Shown: in pieces, positions 41,257 through 59,700 of the stretch | Layout: every line of letters begins with the position of its first letter | How positions within the stretch are numbered: position 1 is the first letter of the stretch | Source: Microlunatus parietis | GTDB lineage: Bacteria > Actinomycetota > Actinomycetes > Propionibacteriales > Propionibacteriaceae | Direction of reading: 5' to 3' | Assembly: GCF_013407955.1 (NCBI RefSeq) | Contig: NZ_JACCBU010000001.1 | Span: 5,270,001-5,334,000, forward strand | Length of the DNA: 64,000 nt | Made by a program: the position numbers and the translations under genes | Notes under the pieces: model-generated | The model's database searches: none | What the model was told of the DNA's origin: nothing | The model's input: the letters and a program-made list of their open reading frames with translations, nothing else

Positions 41257-41329
41257 GGGGCTATGGCGCAGTTGGTAGCGCGTCTCCATGGCATGGAGAA
41301 GGTCAGGGGTTCGAATCCCCTTAGCTCCA
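41257..41329 (+). tRNA. tRNA-Ala (GGC anticodon)
   Basis: 73 bases. The acceptor stem GGGGCTA pairs with TAGCTCC (one G-U), the anticodon stem-loop reads TCTCC-ATGGCAT-GGAGA with anticodon GGC, and the T arm is AGGGGTTCGAATCCCCT. The discriminator is A and the next base C; full CCA is not encoded. The island begins directly at its 3' end, so the tRNA is the probable integration site. Confidence 0.97.
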
Positions 41330-41645
41330 CGTAAGAATCGAAAATCGAACCCTGCCCTTGGTCATGATCGGGCAGGGTTCTTTCGGTTCCTGAGCTTTGA
41401 CCGCGGCTCGGCGCGGCGTCGAGAATCGTGGCGACGGGTTCGGCTGGGGTGACGGTGACGTTCTCCTCATCGTCGACGACAATCCTGCTGAAGAGTGCCC
41501 GGTTGAGCATGCGGCGTTCGGCTGGTCGACTCTTTCGGTAGAGGTCGGAGAGGTCGTGGAGCAGGTCGAGGATGGCATCGAGGCCGTCGCGGGCGCGGTC
41601 GTAGGCGGTGCTGAGTGTTTCGAGTCGACTGGTGGCAGCCTGCAG
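41330..41645 (-). pseudogene. Serine recombinase C-terminal remnant at tRNA-Ala
   Basis: The minus-strand frame encodes AATSRLETLSTAYDRARDGL, then LHDLSDLYRKSRPAERRMLN, RALFSRIVVDDEENVTVTPAEP and runs without a stop into the tRNA complement. The RxxLNRALF.RIVV pattern is that of the C-terminal tail of large serine recombinases (compare EPIRKQLNRAVFERVLIG in the recombinase at 46984). The catalytic domain is missing: an IS3 element begins at 41646 and no matching N-terminal part is found beyond it. The recombinase tail facing the tRNA suggests it mediated integration there. Confidence 0.75.
41347..41380 (+). terminator. Terminator hairpin after tRNA-Ala
   Basis: GAACCCTGCCC (41347-41357) and GGGCAGGGTTC (41370-41380) form a perfect 11-bp stem with a 12-base loop, followed by TTTC. 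It lies 18 bases after the tRNA and overlaps the end of the recombinase remnant. Confidence 0.7.
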
Positions 41646-41685
41646 TGAACCGCCCCGGGTTTTCCGGACGCTTCGGGTTGTGTCT

Positions 41686-42597
41686 CTACCCGGTCGGGCT
41701 GAGACGGTTTCTTGCAGCGTAGTACGCGGTTTCGACCTCGATGGGTGTGAGGTCGTCGATGGCTTCGTGGGTGCGTTCGTGGTTGAACCAGTGGACCCAG
41801 TGCAGGGTCTCGATCTCGACATGATCAACATTGCGCCAAGGCCCGCAGCGTCGGATCATTTCGCTCTTGTAGAGGCCGATCTGGGACTCGGCGAGGGCGT
41901 TGTCGTAGGCGTCGCCCACTGAACCGACGGAGGGGTCGACGCCGGCCTCGATCAGCCTGCTGGTGAAGGCGAACGAGGTGTATTGGGAGCCGGCGTCGGT
42001 GTGGTGGACCAGGCCGGTGAGGTCGGTGATCCCGGCTTGATGGCGGGTCCAGAGCGCGTGTTCGAGGGTGTCCAGGACGAGTTCGGTGGTCATGGTGGTG
42101 GCGGCTCGCCAGCCGACGATCATCCGGGAGTAGACGTCGATGATGAACGCGACGTAGACGGTGCCGGCCCAGGTCGGCACGTAGGTGAAGTCGGCGACCC
42201 AGAGCCGGTTCGGCGCCGGCGCGGTGAAGTCCCGGTCGACCAGATCAGCCGCTCGGGCTTGCTTGGGGTCGGCGATCGTGGTTCGCACCTGCTTGCCCCT
42301 GAGTGCGCCGTGCCAGCCGTTTTGTGCCATCAACCGCTCGACCGTGCACCGGGCCACGTCGTGGCCCTGTCGGCGCAGATACAGCCACAGCTTCCGAGCA
42401 CCGAACCCGTCGACGAACCGCTGCTGCCGGGCGGTCTTGATCAACTCGACGATCTCGGTGTCTCGTAACGCCCGCCGAGATGGCGGCCGGTTACGGGCCT
42501 CGTAGTAGGTGGACGGGGCGATCTTGATCCCGTGCTCGGTCAGCACGCGACAGATCGGCTCGACCCCGAACCGGTCCCGGTGTTCGTCGATGAACAC
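41686..42597 (-). CDS. IS3 transposase orfB (integrase catalytic domain)
   Basis: 303 residues. The HTH_21 region (EHRDRFGVEPICRVLTEHGI) comes first, then the rve/DDE core with WVADFTYVPTWAG (first Asp), HHTDAGSQYTSFAF (second Asp) and NALAESQIGLYKSEMI (Glu), so the active site is complete. The end, HERTHEAIDDLTPIEVE, is typical. It starts with GTG three bases after orfA stops (TGATCGTG); IS3 elements usually join orfA and orfB by frameshifting, but I cannot identify a slippery heptamer. Confidence 0.93.
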   Translation of the reverse strand: MFIDEHRDRFGVEPICRVLTEHGIKIAPSTYYEARNRPPSRRALRDTEIVELIKTARQQRFVDGFGARKLWLYLRRQGHDVARCTVERLMAQNGWHGALRGKQVRTTIADPKQARAADLVDRDFTAPAPNRLWVADFTYVPTWAGTVYVAFIIDVYSRMIVGWRAATTMTTELVLDTLEHALWTRHQAGITDLTGLVHHTDAGSQYTSFAFTSRLIEAGVDPSVGSVGDAYDNALAESQIGLYKSEMIRRCGPWRNVDHVEIETLHWVHWFNHERTHEAIDDLTPIEVETAYYAARNRLSPTG

Positions 42598-46983: not shown

Positions 46984-48545
46984 TCAAAAGTCTGTCTCGG
47001 TTGAGGATTCGTTGTCGGGGCTGACGAGTTCTCGGTAAGGATCATTGAGTTCGACACGGATCTGGTCAGGTTCGTAGCCGATGAGCACACGCTCGAAGAC
47101 GGCGCGGTTCAGCTGTTTGCGGATGGGCTCGGTGGCGCGCTCGTAGGTTGTGTGCACGTCCTGCAGCAGATCAAGCGCATCGCGTGTCTGACGCTCGATC
47201 GTCGCGTGGTCGGTCTCGATCGTCGCGCGCTCCCGGTTGATGCGGGCATGCTCGATCTTGAGTCGGCGTTGTTCTGCGAGGAAGAGGTCGCGAGGGATTG
47301 CGTCGCTGTAGTAGGCGTCGAGCAGTTTGCCGCGGTTGGCTTCGAGGGTCCGGCCCTGCTTGATCAGATTGTGCAGCCGTTCGGCCTTGGCGGCTTTCTG
47401 GTGGTGGAGGCCGGCCACCGCTACCTGCTCGATGCGGTCGCGCAGTTCTGCAGTGAGAGTGAGGTTGCGGTAGCTGTCGGCGACTCGTTGCTCGACATCG
47501 GCGATGGGTAGCGCCCTGCGCTGTGGGCAGTCGAAGTTGCCGCGGCGGTGGCAGACGAAGTATTCGTAGACGCGGCCGCTGCGGGTGCGGGTGTGTTGCA
47601 CTATCAGCCGGCGGCCGCACTTGATGCAATAGACGGTGCCTTTGAGGTAGTGGTCGTGGGTTCGGCTGCGTTCGCCGTTGCGGTGCGCGGTCAGGATGTC
47701 CTGGACAGCCGCCCAAGTCACGGGATCGATCAGAGGCTCATGCTGCTCAGGACTTTCGACACCGTTGAAGGTCACGACGCCCTTGTAGTAGGGGTTCCGG
47801 AGGAGGTGGTGCACGCTGCGCAGCGTGAGCGGTCGGGCTGCCGTGTTGGGCCCTGGCCGGGTGGTCAGGCCGCGGGTGTTGAGTTCGTCTGCGAGCTGGG
47901 TAATGCTCCACTGACCGGTTGCGTAGGTATTGAAGGCCCAGGTGATGTGTGGGCCGCGTTCCGAGTCGACGCAGACGGTACGGATCTCACGTCCGTCACC
48001 TTCGTGGTGGCGCTGATTGAGGTATCCCAGCGGCGCACGGCCCGGGGTGCCTCCCTGGTTTGCCTTCTGTCGCATCCCTTTCATCACCTCAGTGGCGAGG
48101 TTGTGGGAGTAGAACTCCGCGATCGAGGCCATGATCCCATGCAGGAGGCGGCCGCCCGGGGTTGTGTTGATCGGCTCGGCGGTGGAGACCAGCCGGGCGC
48201 CTGTTCCCGTGATCAGGTTGGTGATGGCCGAGTCGTCGGCTCGGTTACGGGCGAGCCGGTCGATCTTGTGAACGATGACGAAGTCCACGGGCCGGGTTTG
48301 GAGGTAGGCAAGCATCTGCCGTAGTTCGGGTCGCTCCATCGACCTGCCGGAGCGGCCTCGCTCGATGAACTCGGCCACGACGAGCGCTCCGAGTTCCAGT
48401 GCCCGGTGCCGGTTCGCTTCGCGCTGCGCCGGGATGGAGAGGCCGTCGGGATCCGACCCGCGCTGCGCCTGGCTGACGGTTGGACGCGGACGTAGGAGAC
48501 CGCGCGCAGCGGGGAAATCGCATGATCGAAATCCGAAGGAACCAT
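46984..48545 (-). pseudogene. Large serine recombinase, frameshifted at the catalytic serine
   Basis: From codon ~22 on the frame is intact: QAQRGSDPDGLSIPAQREAN, then VDFVIVHKIDRLARNR and SIAEFYSHNLATEVMKGMR of the resolvase domain, a Recombinase domain (APLGYLNQRHHEGDG), a zinc-ribbon (YCIKCGRRLIVQHTRTRSG... CHRRGNFDCPQ), a coiled coil and the C-terminal EPIRKQLNRAVFERVLIG. The N-terminal RAVSYVRV lies in another frame, ending at about 48480, exactly where the family has the nucleophilic Ser (YVRVS). One base appears lost, so the catalytic Ser is not encoded. A sequencing error would also explain it. Confidence 0.8.
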
Positions 48546-48648
48546 GCCTCAACGCTTGGAAGCGGCCACCTGTTCCGAGGATGATCAATGGCGATCAGAC
48601 GCCGGGATGGTTGGATCGAGCATCTTCCATCGGCCCATGTGCGCCCGG

Positions 48649-49551
48649 TCAATGTCGCCATCGGAGCTCCTGCGGCAGCCACATCGCCGTGGGTGGTCGC
48701 GCTTCGATGAGTTGATCGGCGAAGGCAGCGACTGTTTCGACGAGTGTGCTGAACACTTGGGGCAGGTGCTCGCCGTCGGCTCCGAGCGATGCTCGGTACG
48801 CGACATAGGCCTGGTGCCGCAGGTTGGCCAGCTCATCGATGACTTCCGATAGCGGTTGGAGTGATGTGCCGCGGAATTCCGCGGTGGCCAGCAGTGCCTC
48901 GTGTACGGCGGCGTGGTGAAGCTGTTGTTTGCTGATGAGGGTGTAGATGTCGGCGTAGTCACGCACTCTGGTGTTCGCGTCGCCGAGGGTGATGGCGGTG
49001 GTGATCTTCTCGGCGAGGACGGTCTCGATCGGATAGCCGAGGATCCGGATCGGAGCAGTCTCTGGACGCAGTGTTGGCAGGTTGATCATTTGTGGAGCCG
49101 GGGTGACCGGATCGCCGAAGTTGACATCGATCCGAAAACGAACGGTGGCGGTTGCGAGCCTGGCGTCCATGGTGACGCGAAGGCCTGCGTAGAGCGCTTC
49201 GTCTCGGATCGTGTGCGCGGTGACGGTGTCGGTGCGGAACTCGACGCCATCGTTGTCGGGAAGGCTAGCGATCTCGAGGATGCGTTCGATGACGGTGGCT
49301 TCGTCGTTAGCCATGTCACGGGCGAGTGCGTCCGCATCGGCGGTGGGTCGGCGAGCGTCGAAGGTCGCGAGGAGCATTCCTCCCTTGAGCACGAACTGCT
49401 CGGTGTGGGCGGATTTGCTGAGCCGGGCGAGCCATCGTTCGACGATGTAGAGGGTCAGGAGTTCCTGGGTGTTGCGGTGTTCCCGGCGGGCGCGGTTCTG
49501 CAGATCGAGGTAGGCGCGTCCGGCTTCTGTTTCGCGGGTGACTCTGGTCAT
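48649..49551 (-). CDS. AbiEii/AbiGii-type nucleotidyltransferase toxin
   Basis: 300 residues. QFVLKGGMLLATFDARRPTA DAD (residues ~52-74) is the KGG...D(x)D nucleotidyltransferase signature, here TADAD where many members have S/T-xDID. ETVLAEKITTAITLGDANTR gives the Lys motif and RDYADIYTLIS the next Asp motif, as in the AbiEii DUF1814 family. Type IV/abortive-infection toxins of this family modify tRNA or other acceptors. It overlaps the AbiEi-type gene by 4 bases and is transcribed with it. Confidence 0.88.
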   Translation of the reverse strand: MTRVTRETEAGRAYLDLQNRARREHRNTQELLTLYIVERWLARLSKSAHTEQFVLKGGMLLATFDARRPTADADALARDMANDEATVIERILEIASLPDNDGVEFRTDTVTAHTIRDEALYAGLRVTMDARLATATVRFRIDVNFGDPVTPAPQMINLPTLRPETAPIRILGYPIETVLAEKITTAITLGDANTRVRDYADIYTLISKQQLHHAAVHEALLATAEFRGTSLQPLSEVIDELANLRHQAYVAYRASLGADGEHLPQVFSTLVETVAAFADQLIEARPPTAMWLPQELRWRH

Positions 49552-50138
49552 TCGGCGCTCGCAATGTCGATGGCTAGACGGACGGGCTGTCGAACATCGA
49601 GCGTTGTCGCCATCCGCAGCAGCAGCCCGGGTTGTGCGTCGCGGCGACGGAGGTAACGGCGGAGTGCGGCGTGAGCCAACGGTTCGCCCAGGCGATGTCG
49701 CAGTCGCATCAGGTCGACGACAGTTCGCGTGGGGTCATAGATCCGCACCGACTCGTCGGGTGCGGCTTCGACCGTTGTCAGGCCGAGTTCGAAGGTGTCG
49801 GTGCCGAACCGGAACACCTCGACGGCGGGGTAGGCGATTCGTGGCGGCCGGTCCGCGGTCGTCACCGCAATCTGCACTCGGGGCGGTATGACGTCGGTCA
49901 AGTCGTAGACCGCTGCCGCGGACACACAGCACACGATGGCACGGGGCGCCCGGTAGGCGACAGCGAGCAGGTCCGGATAGCTCGCAGGCGGCGCGTCCGC
50001 GCGGCGGAACACCCCTCGGGACAACTCGATGACGGCGCCACTGTCCCGCGCCCTGTAGAGATCGCGGGGATGCACGCCACGTGCAAGCGCGGTTGCCGTG
50101 GTGAATGTGTCGGGCAGTCTGTCCGATGTCGCGATCAT
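49548..50138 (-). CDS. AbiEi-type antitoxin
   Basis: 196 residues from ATG 50138. An N-terminal winged helix (TTATALARGVHPRDLYRARD, GAVIELSRGVFRRAD) precedes an AbiEi C-terminal domain (AIVCCVSAAAVYDLTDVIPP, VFRFGTDTFELGLTTVE, VRIYDPTRTVVDLMRLRHRL). The antitoxin binds DNA and represses the operon while offsetting AbiEii. A perfect inverted repeat lies immediately upstream. Together with the toxin it is a complete defence/maintenance module. Confidence 0.88.
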   Translation of the reverse strand: MIATSDRLPDTFTTATALARGVHPRDLYRARDSGAVIELSRGVFRRADAPPASYPDLLAVAYRAPRAIVCCVSAAAVYDLTDVIPPRVQIAVTTADRPPRIAYPAVEVFRFGTDTFELGLTTVEAAPDESVRIYDPTRTVVDLMRLRHRLGEPLAHAALRRYLRRRDAQPGLLLRMATTLDVRQPVRLAIDIASAE

Positions 50139-50140
50139 GG

Positions 50141-50183
50141 ATAGAAGTGTCGCACGAATGAAGCATCCGTGTAACACTTCTAT
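50141..50183. promoter_or_regulatory. AbiE operator inverted repeat
   Basis: ATAGAAGTGT (50141-50150) and ACACTTCTAT (50174-50183) are exact reverse complements, 23 bases apart, starting two bases before the AbiEi ATG. AbiEi proteins are known to bind inverted repeats in their own promoter, so this is a good operator candidate. Confidence 0.7.
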
Positions 50184-50407
50184 CGCATCGATCCGGGTAT
50201 GAAGGTCATGGGTTCACTATGACTACTCCCGGCTTCAGTCCGACGGTGACGTAGTCGCCTTGTCTGGCGACGTCAGATGTCAGTGGTCGCTGTCAGACTT
50301 GAGTCGATTCCTTGGGTCGAGGCCAAGCGGGAGGTTCTGGTGATCAACGTCCTCCTGGGCACGTCCCCAACCGTCGAAGAGGGTCAAGGGCGACGGTTTT
50401 GAGGAAC

Positions 50408-51862
50408 ATGTCCGATTCAGGAGGCGCCGAGCGGTCGTTCGTGCGCCGGCTGAGGGTTCTTGCACACCTCCAGCCGTTGCTCGATATCGAGCACGACAAG
50501 AACCGGGCGGCCCGCGCGGGTGGGGCGAACCGCTCCTGGGATGCCTACGACATGCGGCTGCTTCAGGTCTCCGCCTTCGACGCCATTGCGGCGGAGTACG
50601 GTCTGCATCCCGAAGGCGGTGTTCCACGGATGTCTGTGGAGGCTGCGATCCGGGCGCAGGCGGCGCAATCCGCGCCGGGGCGGACGTCGGCTGAGCATGC
50701 CGAGGTCGCGACATGGCTCATCGATCGCCTGCTGAACGTGGGGTATGCCGCTCGTGGGTTCGACGTGCCCTGGATCAACCCGGCCGACTACACTCGAGCG
50801 GACTTGCGCGTCGTGGCCCTCTACGAGACTTTGACGTCCGATGGCGAGGTCCGACTGCATGCGGACGAAGCTGCTCTCAATCTGACCCTGGCCGGTCTTG
50901 ATTTGGATCTCGAGGACCGGCAGATCGCCGCGGAGGCGGTGCTGCGCGCGCAGATCGAGTCCGGCCGGTGGTTGCAGGCGGAACAGTCCGCCGCGATGAC
51001 TCAGCGGATGGCCGTGGAGTACCGCAATCGGCTTGACCGGTATCTCCGATCGGTCGAGCGCGATCTGCGTGACATCGACTGGGAGGCCGATGCCGAGACC
51101 GTGATCGAGGACGCCCTGGCCCACCTCGAAGGGCGGGTCCGAGCCCTCCATCAATTGTCGGACCATGCGACCCAGTTGGCCGAGGACGTCGATCCGGCGT
51201 CCCGGACCCAGGCGGCCTCGGTCGTCCGGCTTGTCGGCGACACGCTGCAACACCTGCTCGCTCTGCAACGGCACATCCTGGCAGCGCGATCGCGCTTCCG
51301 TGCCGCTCAGGTCGCCCAGGGATTCGCGATCTCACTCGCCGTCGGAAGGGTTCACCTGCACGACGATGTGTTCAAGCCGCTGCTCTCGATGCCACCCGAT
51401 CAGCTCGCGGACCTGGCGCCGGCACTGGTCACACTGTCCGCCGGAGCGACCGCACCCAGGGTGCCGTCGCTGGCGGTGCTGGCCAACGTCCTTCTCGCCC
51501 GGCCCCGCGAGCGGGAGGAAGCCTTCGTCGGCGTGGACCTCGGCGATCTCGAGGAGATCGGGAATCCGTTCGAGAGGTTCGACGACGACACCTGGGCCAA
51601 GGCCCGATCGATGATGGCACAGCTCGGGCCGGAACCGATTCCACTGTCGGCCCTCGTGTGCGGCGCGGACGACGACGTAGCGCTACTCGTAGCGCTGTGT
51701 TCGATGCGGTGCTGGGGCGAGCGAGGCTCGTCGGAGACCCGCGACCCCATGCTGGTCGGCATCGTCGCGATCGAGAGTGGCATTGATCTGAGTCTCGACC
51801 GGTTCACGGTTCCGGATCTGCTGCTGTCCCGCTTGTCAGGAGGTGCAGATGCGGCCAGATGA
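50408..51862 (+). CDS. jetA: Wadjet JetA-like (MukF/kleisin-type) protein
   Basis: 484 residues from ATG 50408. It is largely helical with no catalytic motif. RRLRVLAHLQPLLDIEHDKN opens it, DLRVVALYETLTSDGEVRLH follows, and ALAHLEGRVRALHQLSDHAT to LQRHILAARSRFRAAQVAQG forms a helical middle, as expected for the kleisin subunit that bridges the SMC-like ATPase. Identification rests on order (JetA-B-C-D), overlaps and neighbours rather than a signature. The stop overlaps jetB by 14 bases. Low TGATCA content marks the whole cluster as foreign. Confidence 0.8.
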   Translation: MSDSGGAERSFVRRLRVLAHLQPLLDIEHDKNRAARAGGANRSWDAYDMRLLQVSAFDAIAAEYGLHPEGGVPRMSVEAAIRAQAAQSAPGRTSAEHAEVATWLIDRLLNVGYAARGFDVPWINPADYTRADLRVVALYETLTSDGEVRLHADEAALNLTLAGLDLDLEDRQIAAEAVLRAQIESGRWLQAEQSAAMTQRMAVEYRNRLDRYLRSVERDLRDIDWEADAETVIEDALAHLEGRVRALHQLSDHATQLAEDVDPASRTQAASVVRLVGDTLQHLLALQRHILAARSRFRAAQVAQGFAISLAVGRVHLHDDVFKPLLSMPPDQLADLAPALVTLSAGATAPRVPSLAVLANVLLARPREREEAFVGVDLGDLEEIGNPFERFDDDTWAKARSMMAQLGPEPIPLSALVCGADDDVALLVALCSMRCWGERGSSETRDPMLVGIVAIESGIDLSLDRFTVPDLLLSRLSGGADAAR

Positions 51863-52565
51863 TTTCGCGGACGCGAACAGGCTCCTCAGGTTCTCCATCG
51901 ACGGGACCAGCCGCCCGGGCTCGGATCTCGCCCATCGGGCGTTGCTGGAGCGCTTCCGGACCGACCCCGGGTACGCGAGCGTGGTGCGGTTCGCCGCCGA
52001 GCCGCTCGGTCTGCGCGTGCTCGGCGCCGATCCGCAGGTCGGGCTGATCCTCGACGTCGCGGACGACTCACCGTTTTCGCTCCGGTCGGACGACCTCGCG
52101 CGGGAGTTCAAGTGGACGTCGGCCGCGGAGCGGATCACGTACGGCGTCGCGTTCGTCGGCATCGCGACGTACTGCTACCCCACAGCGAACTCGTTCGGAG
52201 AGTCGGGCGCACGTCAGGTGACGGCCGTCGAGGTCGACGAATGGATCCGAAAGGCTGCGACCGCGGCGCAGACCGACTCGACGGTGGCCGGGGACGAGAT
52301 CGCCACTGCCGACGCGCTAGCCGTATACGTAGCGGAGAAGTCGATCTCCCGGAACAAAGGATCGTCGGCCTTGCGTCAGGACTGCACCGTGTACCGGATC
52401 GGCCGTGTACTGCGCTGGCTGGCCGAGCAGCAATTCATGGTGCGCGACACCACCAAGTCGGACGTGTTCCGCAGCACAGAACGATTCCGTCTGCACGTCC
52501 GCGAGGTGGCAGCGAAGGCGGTCTTCGACGCCATACGATCGGCCGCAGCGGGGAAGGACGACTGA
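51849..52565 (+). CDS. jetB: Wadjet JetB-like (MukE/DUF4194-type) protein
   Basis: 238 residues from ATG 51849, which has AGGAGG five bases upstream and so is preferred over GTG 51843. Winged-helix type protein: ANRLLRFSIDGTSRPGSDLA, RVLGADPQVGLILDVADDSP, ITYGVAFVGIATYCYPTANS and VYRIGRVLRWLAEQQFMVRD are the visible landmarks, fitting the MukE-like subunit of Wadjet/MksBEFG complexes that binds the kleisin and DNA. One-base overlap with jetC (TGATG). Confidence 0.8.
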   Translation: MRPDDFADANRLLRFSIDGTSRPGSDLAHRALLERFRTDPGYASVVRFAAEPLGLRVLGADPQVGLILDVADDSPFSLRSDDLAREFKWTSAAERITYGVAFVGIATYCYPTANSFGESGARQVTAVEVDEWIRKAATAAQTDSTVAGDEIATADALAVYVAEKSISRNKGSSALRQDCTVYRIGRVLRWLAEQQFMVRDTTKSDVFRSTERFRLHVREVAAKAVFDAIRSAAAGKDD

Positions 52566-55500
52566 TGTGGCATCTTCGGCGCGTTCACCTGGAATCGGTC
52601 GGGCATCCGGATGCCCGCTTCGATCCACTCACCGTGAATCTCACCGACATCGACGGGGAACCGACCTCTTCGGTGCTATGGCTGGAAAACATGGGCGGCA
52701 AGACGTCCTGGCTGTCGCTCGTGTTCTGCCCATTGCGACCGGCACTCGACGACTTCCTCGGGAGGCCCGATAAGTATCTGGGTGACTATGTGCTGGCGAC
52801 AGACACGTCGCAGATCCTACTCGAGTTCGCTCAGATCGCCGGTGTCCGGACGCTATCGGGATCGGGCACGCGGCTTTTGCTGGGTCAGGTTATGCAGTGG
52901 AAGCACCGCCGCCAGGAGCGGTCCCGCGAGTCCACCCAGTTGCTAAGGCAATTCTGGGCAGCCGTCGTACCTCCGAGCGGTGGCCGGCTGACGTTCGAGA
53001 GTGCCGTACGGCTGATGCACACCGATGACGATCAACGCCGGCCGCTGTCCGACTTCTCGGCCGGGATTTCGTCGTTGATCGAAGGGGATGCGTTCCGGCC
53101 TGACAACCACCAGGGGCGCTGGGCGGACTGGCTCCGTCAGCACGGGCTGGACCCGGAGGTGTTCGCGGACGAACTCAAGATGTCGGCGGACGAGGGATCC
53201 ATCTCGGAGCGGTTCCACTTCGAGGGCGGTGACCAATTCGTGCAATGGGCGATGCCGTACATCATTCCGCCGGAGGTGCCGGATGGTGTCGCGACTGTGG
53301 TCGAGGGTGTGCGGGACACGTTGACGCAGCGACCGAGCCTCCTCGCTCAACAGCAGTTCTGCCGGACGGTCGAGGGCAAGCTCGAGTTCGCCGCTTCGCA
53401 GCAGACTCAGCTGGAGGAGGAACGGTCGGAGGCGGCCGGAAACTGGGATGCGGCTTTGCGTCTGGTCGACCAGTTCCGCGCTGCGATGGTCCTTGCGAAA
53501 AGCTCAGTCCGACACCACAAAGGACGGGCAGAACACTTCGAGGACAAGGCGAAGAGGGCGCAGTCGGTCCGCAACCACCGCCAGCAGCAAGGTCGGGAAG
53601 CCCAACTTGTCGCGGCACGCTTGCAGTATGAGGAGGCAGCCGGGACTTACGGAGAGCTCACCGAACAGCTCGAGAAGGCGCAGCTGCGAGTTGACGCCTG
53701 GGAGATCACAGGTCGGTTGCGGTCCCAGGGTGAAGCCAAGGCCAGGCTGGCGCAGATCGGTGTGCTGCTCGGGGATATGGACGACCGCGCCGCGCCCCTA
53801 CGCACAGCGGTCTCCGAGGCCGAGTTGCGACTTGCTGCCAAGCTCACGAGCCTTCGCGCCGTGGAACAGGCGACAGTAGACGAAGCGGAGGAGGAACTCG
53901 CGAACGCCGATAGTGCCGCTGCGGCCGCCGAGGAGGAGGAGGGGAAGGCCCGGAGCCAGTACCTCCAAGCGACCAGCGCGGTCGCGTCCGCAGAGGAGCG
54001 GATGCGGCAACTCGACGATGAGCTGTCCCGGGCGATAGAGGACGGCTTGCTTAGGTCTGGACAGCCACTCGATGACGCTCGGGCCTCAGCGGCGGCCGAA
54101 CGCGACCGCTGGAACGCAGAGGTCGAACGCCTCGCGATTTTGGCGGACGGTGCTCTCGGGACCGTCGGCAGGGCGGAGAGAGAGCGTGAATCGGCGAGAG
54201 CGGCGCTGAGCGATGCCCAGGCTGAGTACGAGAAAGCCGCTGCGCGTTCTGAGGCCGTGGATGCCGCCTTGAGTCAGCTTTTGTCGACGCCGGGACTAAC
54301 CGCGGTGTTCGATGCCGCGCACCCTGACGTATGGCAGGACGGCGAAGCGGCGGCCGATCGACTGAGCCGAGATGCGGACTGGGCGGCGGCCGATCGAGTG
54401 GCGGTCGAGCTCGCAGCCGCGACAGATACCCGGGCTGTGGACTGGTTGAATCGCACGGGTTTACTGCCACCCAGCCCCGATGTCGAGGCCGTTCTGGACG
54501 TCCTCGCCGCAGCGGAGGACATCGGCGTGGCCTTCTCTGGTTGGGACGTCCTTCGCAGGCGTGTGCCGGTTGACCAGCAGGCGGCGTATATCTCGCGGTG
54601 TCCTGAGATTGTCAGTGGAGTGGTCCTGGACGGTCCGTCTGACCTGGAAGCCGCGGCCGCGATCGCCAGGAGCGTGGTCCTGACCGGCCCGGTCGTTCTG
54701 ACAACCATGGCTGCCCTTGACGGGGAACGGACGGAGCCATTCACGGTTCTCCAGGGCCCGGCCGCGTTGTACGACGAAAACGCGGCCGCGGCCGAGGCGA
54801 CGCTTCGCGAGGCCCGACTGGACGCCTTCGACGAGGAAAAGCAAGCCGCGAGGGCCCGAGAGGACGAGGCCAGGTCAGCGCGGGCAGCGCTGACTGGATT
54901 TCTCGACCGGCATCCTGCCGACGCGGTCGCTCGCTGGCGCACAGAAGTGGCTGACCGCCAAGCAATTGTCCGGGAGGTACGCGAACGGCTCGGGACGACA
55001 GAAGTGGGCTACCGGCAAGCCCGTGCAACGGCGCAGGCCGCGACGGCAGCCGTGCAGCCGGCTCGTGATCGACTGGGTGAGGTCGAGCGAGCGCAGGAAG
55101 CACTTCGCGGGCTGAGCGACAGGCAAGCTGCTCGGCCGGGGGTGTTGGTCAATCTGCAGGAGGCAGGAGAACAGCTCGCTGCGGCCCGACGTCGTTCTCA
55201 GAAGGCTGATGCGGCCCGTCAGTCGGCGCGCACCCGGGAGAAATCGGCGAACGAGATGATCCTGGGGCTGCAGATTCGCATCAGCCGCATCGACGACGCG
55301 TTCACCCGTTGGCGATTGGAGGCCGTGGATACTGCACCGCCCGACGATCCGGTTGACAGCCTGGAGTTTGCTCTCGAGGCCGCGCGAACCGAACTGCAGC
55401 TGGCCAGCCCGCCCAGCGAACTGCTGCGCGAGCGCAACGACCTGCAGAAGCAACTCGCGGAGCTGGGGTCGCTGATCCGGCAGGCGAACGGCGAGGTCGT

Positions 55501-56971
55501 CACCCTCGCTCGGACACTGCTGTCCGGGCCAGAGGGCGCCACCCTGGACGCACGGGAGACCGCGCTCAGAGCCGCTAAGGCGAGCCTGATGGAGCTGGCG
55601 AAGCAGGAAGCGCTCGCCAAGCAGACATTGTCCGCTGCCCAGGACGACCTGCGGCAGAAGGAGGCGATCGCTCCGAGCCGTCGAGCGCCGCTCGACGAGG
55701 AGCCGGCCACCGCCGACCGAGCGCGGGAGCTGCTCGAGCAGTTGACAGCCCAGGCAGCAGCTGCGTTCGAGGAACACTCGGAAGCGACAGATTCCCAGAA
55801 GCATCACGCCCGAGCGGCCGACGAAGCCGAACAGGACCGGAAGGCTTTCGAGCGGGAAGCAGCTGACCTCGCGGTCGTGCTGCGCCGCTGTGCGGTGATG
55901 ATGGATCGCCCCGCCGACATCATCGACCTGCCGCGGGAAGAGTCCGCATGGTCGGGTGGTACGGAGTTCGCCGAGAAGGCCCGGCGCGGCAGTCAGACCA
56001 AGCTCGACGACGCCGCCGAGTACATTAGGCTCGCGATTCAGGAACGTGACGGCGCGCTTGACGACGTCCGCCATCTCGCCAATCAATTCAGGAAGCTGCT
56101 CACCGACGACCTGCCGACGCTGATACCGCGGTTGACCGAGGGGACGGCGGACCAACGCGGCGCCTACGCACGTCAATTGACTGGTCAGCTGCATACGTTC
56201 GCGCTGACCATAGACAAGCAGCTCGCCGATGTTGAGCGGCACCGGCGGATCGTGATCGAGCATCTGGTCGGCAAGGTGAAGGAGACCGTGAAGCTGCTCG
56301 AGCGGATGCAGCGACGGACCCGGATGCCGGCCGGGCTCGAGGAGTGGTCGGATCGTTCGTTCCTACATCTCACCCATCCCAAGCTGCCCGAGACGACGGA
56401 AGAGCTGTCAGGCAAGGTCGCGACGGTTGTGGACCGGGTGTGCGCCGATCCGGACAAGACGGTGCCCTCCGGCATGGACCTGTTGTACACCGCGGTATCG
56501 GCTTCGATCGGCGGTCCGTTCCACGCAACGATCCTGAAACCTCACAAACGGCTGACAAACGAACGGGTGGACATCGGTGAAATGTCGGTGTTCTCCGGCG
56601 GCCAGAAGGTGACCGTAGCACTGGTGATGTTCGCCGCGCTGACCAGGATGCGCACCGAGGCCCGTTCATCAGGCTTGCAGACGAACGCCGCGCTGCCCCT
56701 GCTGCTAGACAATCCGATCGGCAAGGCCAATCAAGCCACGTTGATGGAGGTGCAACAACGGGTGGCGGATGCTTTCGGACTGCAGCTGATCTACACAACC
56801 GGGCTACACGACGTCGGTGCTCTTGCATCCTTCAAGAACATCGTGCGACTGGACGGTCGCGAGAACCCACGCTCAGGTCACGTTCATCTCGTCGTCGACA
56901 AGATGGCTGCCGATCTCGTGTACCTGGATTCCATCCGGCTGGTTCAGCATGAGGAGCCGGGGTATGACTGA
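52565..56971 (+). CDS. jetC: Wadjet JetC-like SMC/MukB-type ATPase
   Basis: 1468 residues. A Walker A-like loop SVLWLENMGGKTSW lies at residues ~37-49 (ENMGGKTS), the long middle is coiled coil (for example residues ~430-700 and ~950-1180) with a central hinge-like domain near 730-900, the ABC signature VFSGGQKVTVAL is at ~1342 and Walker B LPLLLDNPIGKAN at ~1378-1390 has Asp-Asn where most SMC proteins have Asp-Glu. IYTTGLHDVGAL carries the H-switch. This is the motor of a loop-extruding complex that recognises and restricts circular plasmids. Overlaps jetD by 8 bases. Confidence 0.9.
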   Translation: MWHLRRVHLESVGHPDARFDPLTVNLTDIDGEPTSSVLWLENMGGKTSWLSLVFCPLRPALDDFLGRPDKYLGDYVLATDTSQILLEFAQIAGVRTLSGSGTRLLLGQVMQWKHRRQERSRESTQLLRQFWAAVVPPSGGRLTFESAVRLMHTDDDQRRPLSDFSAGISSLIEGDAFRPDNHQGRWADWLRQHGLDPEVFADELKMSADEGSISERFHFEGGDQFVQWAMPYIIPPEVPDGVATVVEGVRDTLTQRPSLLAQQQFCRTVEGKLEFAASQQTQLEEERSEAAGNWDAALRLVDQFRAAMVLAKSSVRHHKGRAEHFEDKAKRAQSVRNHRQQQGREAQLVAARLQYEEAAGTYGELTEQLEKAQLRVDAWEITGRLRSQGEAKARLAQIGVLLGDMDDRAAPLRTAVSEAELRLAAKLTSLRAVEQATVDEAEEELANADSAAAAAEEEEGKARSQYLQATSAVASAEERMRQLDDELSRAIEDGLLRSGQPLDDARASAAAERDRWNAEVERLAILADGALGTVGRAERERESARAALSDAQAEYEKAAARSEAVDAALSQLLSTPGLTAVFDAAHPDVWQDGEAAADRLSRDADWAAADRVAVELAAATDTRAVDWLNRTGLLPPSPDVEAVLDVLAAAEDIGVAFSGWDVLRRRVPVDQQAAYISRCPEIVSGVVLDGPSDLEAAAAIARSVVLTGPVVLTTMAALDGERTEPFTVLQGPAALYDENAAAAEATLREARLDAFDEEKQAARAREDEARSARAALTGFLDRHPADAVARWRTEVADRQAIVREVRERLGTTEVGYRQARATAQAATAAVQPARDRLGEVERAQEALRGLSDRQAARPGVLVNLQEAGEQLAAARRRSQKADAARQSARTREKSANEMILGLQIRISRIDDAFTRWRLEAVDTAPPDDPVDSLEFALEAARTELQLASPPSELLRERNDLQKQLAELGSLIRQANGEVVTLARTLLSGPEGATLDARETALRAAKASLMELAKQEALAKQTLSAAQDDLRQKEAIAPSRRAPLDEEPATADRARELLEQLTAQAAAAFEEHSEATDSQKHHARAADEAEQDRKAFEREAADLAVVLRRCAVMMDRPADIIDLPREESAWSGGTEFAEKARRGSQTKLDDAAEYIRLAIQERDGALDDVRHLANQFRKLLTDDLPTLIPRLTEGTADQRGAYARQLTGQLHTFALTIDKQLADVERHRRIVIEHLVGKVKETVKLLERMQRRTRMPAGLEEWSDRSFLHLTHPKLPETTEELSGKVATVVDRVCADPDKTVPSGMDLLYTAVSASIGGPFHATILKPHKRLTNERVDIGEMSVFSGGQKVTVALVMFAALTRMRTEARSSGLQTNAALPLLLDNPIGKANQATLMEVQQRVADAFGLQLIYTTGLHDVGALASFKNIVRLDGRENPRSGHVHLVVDKMAADLVYLDSIRLVQHEEPGYD

Positions 56972-57992
56972 CATTGAGCGTTTCGTGGCCGAGCTCCGGG
57001 AAGCCGCGGGGCGGCGTACCCGGGTCGACACCGACGAGATCTGGCGGATCTTCATCCGGCTGTTCGTCGACGCATCTCGGGCCGTCGACGCCAGGAAACA
57101 GCTCGCCGAGCTCATCGGGGCGGCCGGCGAGGCTGGTTTGATTCAGCCGTCCGTTTCGACGGACAACCTCGCTCCGATTCCGTTACCCCGCTTCGTGAAA
57201 CTGATCGACGGCCGGCCGGCGCGAGTTGGCCGCCGCCCGGTTCCGTGGGTGGATGCGCTTGCCTGGGCGTCGGACGTGGACCTCAGTGACCCGCAGTACG
57301 ACGTGCTCGACCGTGTGAACCGTTGGCTGCGAGATGGTGGTGCGGAGCGTCCGATCGTTCCGGCCGAAGAGCGGTCTGCCGAACTGTTCGATGATGAGAA
57401 GGCGATCGCACGTCGAGTCGGGGGAACTGCGACGTTCTGGCGGCCAGATCGCTTATCGCCAACGCTGCTGCGGTACGAGAACGTGCCGATCCCGTTTGCA
57501 TATCGGGTGGTTGGCGAGGGCACCAGCCTGCTGATGGTCGAGAACACTGCCGCGTTCCGGACTTGCGCCCGCCTCCTCGCCGCTGAGTCCGGCCACCCGT
57601 ACTGCGCAGTCGCGTTCGGGCAGGGCACCTGGGCTGCGCAGACCATCACCGCAGCTCTCGACCATCCGACTCCGATCACTGAAGTCCATTACTGGGGCGA
57701 CCTCGATGTCTGGGGGCTCGAGATCACCCGCGAGGTCCTCGCAGCTGCGAGGACGGTCGACCTCACCGCCCGTGTGCATACCTCGCTGTGGACTCTCATG
57801 CTCTCCAAGCGTTCGATCCCAACAACTAAGGGACCGACTACATTCGATCCCACGCTGGTCGACGTCCTGCCCGTGCAACTCCGCCAACGCGCAATAACGG
57901 TTCTTGCGAAGCGCCACAGAATCCCACAGGAACGAGTCGGCTACGAGCTTCTGCTCTGCACTCCGCGCTGGTGGGAGTTCTCGGGTCATTGA
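56964..57992 (+). CDS. jetD: Wadjet JetD-like TOPRIM nuclease
   Basis: 342 residues. The N-terminal ~140 residues are winged-helix/linker (FVAELREAAGRRTRVDTDEI, RPVPWVDALAWASDVDLSDP). The TOPRIM domain follows: LLMVENTAAFRTCARLL with Glu193, AVAFGQGTWAAQTITAALD, and VHYWGDLDVWGLEITREVL with Asp246 and Asp248, the metal-binding set of the topoisomerase VI A-like family. JetD cleaves plasmid DNA trapped by the JetABC complex. ATG 56964 lies inside the jetC 3' end. A 150-base gap follows to the convergent DUF6119 gene. Confidence 0.9.
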   Translation: MTDIERFVAELREAAGRRTRVDTDEIWRIFIRLFVDASRAVDARKQLAELIGAAGEAGLIQPSVSTDNLAPIPLPRFVKLIDGRPARVGRRPVPWVDALAWASDVDLSDPQYDVLDRVNRWLRDGGAERPIVPAEERSAELFDDEKAIARRVGGTATFWRPDRLSPTLLRYENVPIPFAYRVVGEGTSLLMVENTAAFRTCARLLAAESGHPYCAVAFGQGTWAAQTITAALDHPTPITEVHYWGDLDVWGLEITREVLAAARTVDLTARVHTSLWTLMLSKRSIPTTKGPTTFDPTLVDVLPVQLRQRAITVLAKRHRIPQERVGYELLLCTPRWWEFSGH

Positions 57993-58140
57993 CCGCGTTA
58001 CGTCGCCCGGCTTGGCACAGAATTGGCCAACCAGTCTCGGTTGTCCACCACCTTCGTTAGAACCGCTCAACTGGGACGATCCGATTGCCGGTGCGCCTCC
58101 AGGCCCCGACTATCTGGACCGCCTTCCAGCGTGCAGGCGG

Positions 58141-59700
58141 TCATGTCTCGGCCAGGTGGATGGAACGAACCTCGACTTCGATGCGCGCCGACTGTAGAAG
58201 TCGAGCGGCCTGGACGAGCGCAACCTGCGAGAATGGAAACAGAGTGCGAGGCGTGATTTCCTCACCGGCTTTGAGCAGGATCCCGAAGATGATTTTGGCT
58301 GGCTTGAAGTCGGGCGGGAGTTCGCGGCCGCGCCCGTGCTTCCGGACGATCTCCCGGAATCGGCTGCGTGCCTGAACAGAACCCTCGAGGCCCTGGATGG
58401 CCACGCAGGCCTGCATGAAGAGGTGACTTAGTGGCGAGGACCCAGTGGCCTTCTTGACGTGGATCAACTCGTTGCCAGGTCCGAGCAGGTCGCACGCCTC
58501 AAAGCCCCACCGCGTGTGGAATTCGTCCTGGACTCCCTTGCGGTCCAGGCAGATCAGGTGAAGGTCGGGATCGAACGCAGCGGCCTCGTTGTAGTCGCGC
58601 TCCGACTGGTCCACACGCCAGTCGGGAAGAACGATGTCGGACCGGATCTTGAGTAGCTCATTCACCGCCTGGCGCAGCCGTTCCTGGTAGTCGGCGTCGA
58701 TCTCGTACCAGTGGCCGTCCACGAGCGCGAAGTGCCGGTCATCGAAGTTTGTGATCGCTTCGAGCCACTCGATGGCCTTAGTGCCGCCAAGCAGATGGTC
58801 GCAGTCGTCGTCGGCATACGCCGAGATCCGCCCGTCCCGGAAGGATTGCAGTCTGGTTCCGGCCCGGAGAATGTGCGCCCGGTTGAGGAGATTGGCCACG
58901 GTGACCTCGGATTCTCTGCGGCTGACACCGTTCAGCCTGACCTTGTATGCGCGAACATCGTCGATCGCATCGGCGAGTTCCATGGGGACGACGCTGCTCA
59001 GCCGGTGCCCGGCCTCGTCGGCCTTATTGCCCAGCATCAGCTCGAGATCTTTGTCCAGGCGAGTGACGGTGTCGATATCCTGCAGGGGACGCATGCGGTC
59101 GGCGAACTCCAGGTCCGTGACGCGTGCTCGGTCGAGAACTTGAGCGATGGTTCGGATATCCGACACCAATTCGGCTGGGTCGGTCGCAAGGCGGATCCGC
59201 AAGCCGATGCCTCCGTCTATCGGCACAGGACGGTCCGGGCGCGTGTGGGTGAGTTGAAGGCTCTCCGACTTGCCGCCGGCGCCGCCCACGAGGTCGGCGT
59301 ACGCATCGGACACGTCGAATGCCCAGATCGACGATCCGCTGGGCATCCGTGTCACCTCGGTCCTCCCACGGGCGCCAGGCCGTCGGCGCATCAGCTTGCT
59401 GACCTGCTTCGGATCGAGAGCGCGCATCGCGAACTCGAGCCCGAACCGGCGGTCCTTCTGATCGCCAGAAAGAAGTCGGTGGCCCTGGCCGTAGCCAATG
59501 GCATAGGTCCGCTTGTCGACGATCAGCAACAGGAGGCCAGCCGACCGCGAGTCAACGAAGTGCACCGGTCTGCCTGTGGTGCGGCTGGCGGCCAAGCACC
59601 ACTCGGCCGAGTCTCCATCCGTGGTTCGAAACGACCCTTCGACCCATAGGCCTGGAGACCCGGCCACAGTGACGTCATCCACGTCGAAGTCCTCGAGCAT
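58141..59700 (-). CDS. TIGR04141/DUF6119 family protein
   Basis: 519 residues. Family landmarks are RSAGLLLLIVDKRTYAIGYG, RFGLEFAMRALDPKQVSKL, RDYNEAAAFDPDLHLICLDR (Y-N-x-A-A-A), FEACDLLGPGNELIHVKKAT (residues ~415-435) and SPLSHLFMQACVAIQGLEGS. This sporadic family occurs in mobile and defence islands and is thought to have a nuclease-like core; the function is unproven. Usual members are ~540-570 residues with an extra N-terminal strand, so this copy may lack ~30-50 residues; the frame is open 78 bases above ATG 59700 but offers no better start. Convergent with jetD. Confidence 0.85.
   Translation of the reverse strand: MLEDFDVDDVTVAGSPGLWVEGSFRTTDGDSAEWCLAASRTTGRPVHFVDSRSAGLLLLIVDKRTYAIGYGQGHRLLSGDQKDRRFGLEFAMRALDPKQVSKLMRRRPGARGRTEVTRMPSGSSIWAFDVSDAYADLVGGAGGKSESLQLTHTRPDRPVPIDGGIGLRIRLATDPAELVSDIRTIAQVLDRARVTDLEFADRMRPLQDIDTVTRLDKDLELMLGNKADEAGHRLSSVVPMELADAIDDVRAYKVRLNGVSRRESEVTVANLLNRAHILRAGTRLQSFRDGRISAYADDDCDHLLGGTKAIEWLEAITNFDDRHFALVDGHWYEIDADYQERLRQAVNELLKIRSDIVLPDWRVDQSERDYNEAAAFDPDLHLICLDRKGVQDEFHTRWGFEACDLLGPGNELIHVKKATGSSPLSHLFMQACVAIQGLEGSVQARSRFREIVRKHGRGRELPPDFKPAKIIFGILLKAGEEITPRTLFPFSQVALVQAARLLQSARIEVEVRSIHLAET

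Follow-up and report, generated by a model that had tools for sequence, protein, structure and literature searches.

A complete Wadjet type III operon in Microlunatus parietis and the conserved asparagine in the Walker B motif of its JetC class

Is an SMC-like (structural maintenance of chromosomes) defence ATPase without the catalytic glutamate of its Walker B motif a damaged protein, or can it be the regular form of a whole class? The question is raised by the jetABCD operon of Microlunatus parietis, which occupies positions 50408-57992 on the + strand of a 64,000-nucleotide stretch of contig NZ_JACCBU010000001.1 (positions 5,270,001 to 5,334,000; hereafter the window, whose numbering is used for its features). 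An earlier note on this DNA had described a complete cluster of the Wadjet/Mks group and had presented the asparagine (Asn) that replaces glutamate (Glu) in its ATPase, JetC, as an oddity. Judged by its protein profiles, the operon is a complete Wadjet type III system, an already known class, and alignment indicates that the Asn is a conserved feature of that class, not a defect of the window gene. Our preferred reading, to which we assign a probability of about 0.6, is that a complete, selected-for type III operon lies on a defence-rich island, and that its ATPase heads would cycle without the canonical Glu, hydrolysis being served by a relocated base.

According to the open reading frames (ORFs) and their translations, four overlapping genes follow one another in the order A-B-C-D, all on the + strand. 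They encode the kleisin-like JetA (50408..51862, 484 aa; PADLOC profile JetA3 PDLC00567, E 1e-85), a putative KITE/MukE-like JetB (51849..52565, 238 aa), the SMC-like ATPase JetC (52565..56971, 1468 aa; JetC3 PDLC00579, E 6.1e-204, covering residues 1-1464) and JetD of the TOPRIM nuclease family (56964..57992, 342 aa; JetD3 PDLC00594, E 3.6e-57). The overlaps measure 14 nt (jetA/jetB), 1 nt (jetB/jetC) and 8 nt (jetC/jetD). Each gene runs from an ATG start to a TGA stop, and no stop codon or frameshift was found inside any of them.

Three types of Wadjet have been described (PMC12647877; this and the other papers cited by PMC number are cited from their accessible parts). With JetA, JetC and JetD all matching type III profiles in the canonical gene order, the description as a complete JetABCD cluster stands, and the ATPase does not fall in an unrelated family. 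Window JetC gave no match up to E 0.1 to the PADLOC models JetC1, JetC2 or LmuB (Lamassu), and the operon none up to E 0.1 to TIGR02680 (type II), which also found nothing at E 1e-20 across the whole genome. The Pfam model JetD_C (PF09983) scored window JetD at 34.2 bits against a cut-off of 22, a cut-off passed by 11 of 12 JetD homologues; on JetA, JetB and JetC Pfam gave nothing above cut-off, and NCBIfam gave nothing above cut-off on any of the four proteins. The presence of JetD in the operon separates it from nuclease-less condensins of the MukBEF/MksBEF kind, and the absence of a JetC1 match together with Asn at residue 1383 separates it from type I. The operon shares with type I and MksBEFG systems (E. 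coli GF4-3, C. glutamicum) the four-part architecture and the acidic residues in the TOPRIM stretch of JetD/MksG, but JetC of type I carries D-E-A in Walker B (8/8 loci) and its JetC1 model spans only about 1120 positions. With type III as a class, of which the annotated operon of Cupriavidus necator H16 is an example known to us from its description (PMC12645576), the window operon has in common the A, C and D profiles, gene order, JetC size and Asp-Asn-Pro (DNP) stretch. The suggestion that the window holds a divergent actinobacterial subtype was therefore not borne out: the class is type III, which is known in Proteobacteria records too. What does set the window operon apart within type III is a long, isolated JetC branch shared with a single Kribbella relative in a quick tree (34 rows, 502 columns, midpoint root; partial rows L058 and L102 left out), two substitutions discussed below, and a JetB below the detection of the JetB3 models; many branches of this tree are long, so its deep order is unsure. 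The window operon is intact and ordinary within type III; the ATP site of type III is not ordinary.

The Walker A motif of window JetC reads LENMGGKT (residues 40-47; 52682..52705), followed by SW, the ABC (ATP-binding cassette) signature is read from the sequence as SGGQK (1344-1348; 56594..56608), and Walker B with the following stretch is LLLDNPIGKAN (1379-1389; 56699..56731), with N1383 (codon AAT, 56711-56713) in the place of the catalytic Glu. The motifs described earlier for this 1468-residue protein are thus all present, and the Asn is real; its reading as a peculiarity of this copy did not survive comparison. Columns 1382-1384 are D-N-P in 36/36 aligned type III loci, window included, a chosen subset of the fetched loci in which seven are near-copies from one genus. 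In a second, overlapping type III set, which alone includes loci L063-L092, DNP was read in 70 of 76 ORF matches, the other six stopping short of the stretch. These counts cover fetched loci; many JetC3 matches listed for the class and for the Streptomyces-like genus g3 have none. The four type II JetC proteins read have DE (L031, L034) or DD (L032, L033), and a global profile-profile alignment pairs N1383 with the type I JetC Glu (IDEAFGRGSD). Since Asn is found in every aligned locus, we regard it as a feature of the class rather than a gene defect, and a differing ATPase cycle, as the earlier note had proposed for this one protein, is plausible for the class as a whole.

Other parts of the ATP site are well kept. 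The Walker A Lys is present in 34/34 type III rows, and across 20 chosen lineages S1344 and G1346 of the signature are invariant (G1345 in 19/20), as are N42, G45, K46, W186, E210, R1363, D1382, N1383, P1384 and Q1407. E210 (53192..53194) is invariant in 34/34 rows and lies seven residues past a conserved Gln position, in or near a stretch that, from its distance to Walker A, we take as the Q-loop. In the window this Gln position is Glu203 (53171..53173; Gln in 31/34), and Walker A has Met43 where 32/34 rows have Gly; both substitutions are confined to the window and its Kribbella relative (2/34 each). In two other rows (L054 and L100, NGGGKG) Gly replaces the Walker A Ser/Thr. The place of the D-loop Asp is taken in type III by Asn (22), Ser (13) or Thr (1 of 36); by hand count it is Asp in 4/4 type II and 4/8 type I proteins. 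This difference is softened because the other 4/8 type I proteins have Ser there, and the profile alignment sets the type I template's Asp one residue further on. A search of solved structures with the JetC profile matched myosin coiled coils only, which we take as compositional, and a single JetC query gave nothing useful.

The nuclease appears equally intact. E193, D246 and D248 of JetD, the metal-binding acidic residues (E193 ... D246-x-D248; 57540..57707), are present as originally read and do not vary among the 12 JetD3 proteins aligned, that of the window among them. In a profile search of solved structures, this acidic stretch of JetD3 matched an MksG chain (E 0.00033) and, more weakly, two JetD chains (E 0.022, 0.085); a single JetD query against solved structures returned nothing useful. 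The identity of JetB is putative, based on its position, its size and homologues: the second genes of 11 other type III operons, beside JetC3, align with it, and of the 12 aligned members three JetB3 models recognise 3, 2 and 2, respectively (best E 7e-5). A JetB profile found nothing below E 0.029 among solved structures. Fold predictions from two-sequence alignments (window and the Kribbella locus L019) were too poor to use, with a mean pLDDT (predicted local distance difference test) of 41.0 for JetD and 48.7 for JetB.

Purifying selection acts on all four window genes. The ratio of nonsynonymous to synonymous substitution rates (dN/dS) between the window and the Kribbella copy is 0.14 for JetA, 0.12 for JetB, 0.21 for JetC and 0.22 for JetD, and JetC dN/dS is 0.13-0.16 among three near-core copies of genus g3. 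It follows that the Asn-bearing ATPase is maintained.

For the mechanism, type I provides the analogy. Together with JetB and the kleisin JetA, JetC dimers would load on DNA, an ATP-driven head cycle would capture or extrude the plasmid, and the JetABC complex would then activate JetD, whose TOPRIM site would cut it. Wadjet research has so far dealt mostly with type I (PMC10586767), which extrudes and cuts circular DNA; a type II complex cuts naked circles, and type III is described as lacking the hinge channel (PMC12647877). Type III biochemistry was not found in the literature accessible to us. In type III the heads would cycle with the canonical catalytic Glu replaced by an invariant Asn. 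We favour persistence of hydrolysis with a base from elsewhere, and E210, just past the Q-loop-like stretch, is the best candidate that the sequence offers for the substitute catalytic residue. Loss of the Glu does not have to inactivate an ATP site. In an ABC exporter where Met replaces Glu in one of the two sites, transport is restored by changing three more residues (PMC7544095), but the exporter's other site is canonical, and a JetC homodimer would offer no such site.

Several points weigh against this reading. Window JetB matches no JetB3 or other Jet model. The profile alignment that puts N1383 on the type I Glu has a probability of only 37.5 in the C-lobe (E 6e-5; 93 in the N-lobe), and the alignment to type II is unusable (0.1 and 18, respectively). 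The position of E210 comes from sequence alone and has a gap as its counterpart in type I; L058 and L102, lacking the N-lobe, give no information on it. Deletion of the type III operon in C. necator H16 left electroporation efficiency and plasmid stability unchanged under the conditions tried (PMC12645576). Finally, exchange of Glu for Gln abolishes DNA entrapment by MukB (PMC7617805) and impairs the ATPase of MksB (PMC10123090), and therefore a Glu-less site may simply fail to turn over.

The last point leads to the strongest rival, namely that JetC3, as LmuB may do, binds ATP and hardly hydrolyses it, and would license JetD as a single-turnover clamp or sensor, not as a processive extruder. 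LmuB of Lamassu, an SMC/Rad50-like defence ATPase, is a natural precedent for a missing catalytic Glu: it generally has Gln there and may show little or no hydrolysis, according to a review (PMC10586767). It belongs to a different family with different partners, and window JetC does not match it. The universal Asn among the type III loci, the consistent lack of Asp at the D-loop place and the two rows with Gly for Walker A Ser/Thr would all suit such a clamp. The D-loop argument is weak, however, given the Ser of half the type I loci, and the strict conservation of both Asn and E210 under purifying selection fits an active site of its own kind at least as well. We consider the clamp rather unlikely.

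A further rival concerns the role of the operon rather than its chemistry, and comes from a branch of type III without the nuclease. In genus g3, JetC3 is found in 100/101 genomes, including 98/98 good ones, and JetD3 (profile at E 1e-6) in 9/101. A JetC3 adjoins every one of the ten g3 JetD matches, and all nine genomes carry another JetC3 elsewhere. Seven g3 core loci have JetA, JetB and JetC and no JetD in the stretch. The same holds for five loci from families f71 and f97 with sequence after JetC, where JetD was looked for in the locus stretch only (L045-L047, L049-L052, L055, L109, L111, L113 and L114 are the JetD-less loci of both groups); L114 is cut before JetA, and the missing JetD of L110 is uninformative, as its contig ends about 100 bases past JetC. 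The JetD-less rows lie among JetD-bearing ones in the midpoint-rooted JetC tree, requiring at least three changes, and JetD loss, or loss and regain, is therefore likely. Several Wadjet-group members without JetD have been reported (PMC7617805), and a survey of actinobacterial defence found Wadjet in 42% of genomes, towards the chromosome ends in Streptomyces (PMC10482375); the examined parts of these two papers do not mention a JetD-less core copy. One genome (G721) has a type III JetC-JetD pair in inverted copies near both ends of a 9.24 Mb contig (C1:11107-16700 and 9222605-9228027), placed as if in terminal inverted repeats; this arrangement and genome size are what makes g3 Streptomyces-like.

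By extension from these relatives, the main role of the window operon could be chromosome maintenance rather than plasmid defence, as the near-universal JetC3 and rare JetD3 of g3 would suggest. We consider this improbable for the window, where JetD is kept with its catalytic residues under selection and the operon is sporadic among relatives and stands beside AbiE in an island. Least probable of all is that the operon is degenerate and its odd motifs are decay, as Met43 and Glu203 and the lack of phenotype of one type III operon elsewhere (PMC12645576) might suggest, since the genes are uninterrupted with dN/dS of 0.12-0.22 and both substitutions are shared with the 86%-identical Kribbella JetC.

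JetC3 is sporadic around M. parietis. It was found in 0/19 other genomes of the genus, 0/25 of the family, 2/32 of the order and 11/198 drawn from the phylum (own genome included), and, with a wider profile, in 61/394 genomes of the class, mostly from genus g3 and family f71. Outside Actinomycetota, sampling was thin: the nine JetC3 records of a plasmid collection include one each from Polaromonas, Microvirga, Salmonella and E. coli, and 92 of 5426 genomes matched among E. coli chromosomes, 63 over at least 80% of the query; these are close to one another. The annotation of the Salmonella plasmid (L024:3931-8357) splits its type III JetC into two overlapping genes, and the gene looks broken or misannotated. 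Nothing close at the DNA level to the window operon or to a g3 core locus was found in the plasmid collection, scans of viral contigs revealed no relative, and a phage collection queried with the Polaromonas JetC only gave no match.

The closest relative of the window operon is in Kribbella sp. VKM Ac-2527 (L019, NZ_SNWQ01000003.1), with 88.6% DNA identity over 50371-57996. That locus also shares 1.2 kb of the downstream DUF6119 gene at 86%, AbiE neighbours, and Met43 with Glu203. It differs in its AbiE proteins, which are 43-50% identical to those of the window, and its 14.4 kb contain no match to the window recombinase. The sporadic occurrence of JetC3 and this DNA match together support horizontal spread of the window copy.

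The operon lies in a stretch that begins at a tRNA-Ala(ggc) gene (41257..41330, + strand), which we take to mark the island's left boundary: four genomes of the same genus are syntenic with the window DNA up to 41330, 41330, 41354 and 41605, at most 275 bases past the tRNA. GC content falls from 0.67-0.73 in the first 40 kb to 0.61-0.68 in the rest. In the nearest same-genus genome, G242, a match to the window serine recombinase follows directly past the end of synteny. By eye, the frame at 41400-41700 (- strand) after the tRNA resembles the C terminus of a further serine recombinase; G242 similarity reaches 41605. The right edge was sought with the post-tRNA ORFs (at least 150 aa) of the four relatives, which apart from the G242 recombinase had no match in the 175 kb past the tRNA at cut-offs of E 1e-40 and 45% identity. 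A search for a repeat of the tRNA end found none in the window or the 19 kb that follow, and the 152 kb beyond the window lack tRNA genes. The lower-GC stretch after the tRNA, its serine recombinase and the sporadic operon agree with the recombinase island proposed earlier; carriage of the operon by the recombinase does not follow, given the Kribbella locus without one.

Further genes of the island include a transposase with an rve integrase core (41686..42597, - strand; PF00665, 6.7e-25), which we take to be IS3-like, and the large serine recombinase itself (46984..48588, - strand), with Resolvase, Recombinase and Zn_ribbon_recom domains. Upstream of JetA are, both on the - strand, an AbiEii nucleotidyltransferase toxin of a type IV toxin-antitoxin family (48649..49551; PF08843, 5.2e-33; PADLOC AbiEii, 2.6e-82) and its AbiEi antitoxin (49548..50177; PF13338, 2.3e-8; PADLOC AbiEi, 6.2e-87). 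An AbiE pair is also found near another type III operon, L108 of genus g3 (AbiEii 40%, AbiEi 51% identical). Downstream of JetD, and convergent with it, is a DUF6119/TIGR04141 protein (58141..59700, - strand; PF19614, E 4.6e-102; TIGR04141, E 6.8e-118).

The same convergent arrangement of DUF6119 behind JetD occurs in the window, L019, L056 and L057, which represent three different JetC lineages, JetC of L056 and L057 being 23 and 26% identical to that of the window. The L057 DUF6119 protein is 87% identical to the window's, though its JetC neighbour is so distant. In G744, DUF6119 lies near JetC3 on the upstream side of JetC. Of 35 other JetC3 loci, 3 match window DUF6119, though in many the sequence ends a few kb after JetD. 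We reject the idea that DUF6119 is an obligate partner: it is found in 8/38 genomes of the genus Kribbella, including G285 and G287, which have no JetC3. Two type I Wadjet loci are also present in the M. parietis genome: one is complete (JetA1-B1-C1-D1), the other has JetABC and a fourth tested ORF that matches no JetD; these loci (G000:C1:5433000-5446000, L061, and 5380000-5395000, L060) are both about 120 kb or less from the type III operon.

Tentatively, and with the odds somewhat against so broad a statement, all type III systems may be SMC-like motors built on a Glu-less site with a conserved Asn, working by E210 catalysis or by one-shot capture that needs ATP binding only, with one branch, its nuclease lost, having become a chromosomal complex of nearly every member of a Streptomyces-like genus. 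The Wadjet literature, as far as covered (in part, without preprints), contained no statement of the Asn trait for type III, which may nonetheless be in print. Models of how SMC complexes load and extrude loops are built on ATP hydrolysis with the Walker B Glu, and MukB loading stops when this Glu is changed to Gln (PMC7617805). Natural SMC-like defence ATPases with a selected Asn would allow the need for the Glu in extrusion or plasmid sensing to be tested directly, which makes the energy cycle of type III a testable question, and the near-universal JetD-less JetABC of a large actinobacterial genus may be a second condensin-like system.

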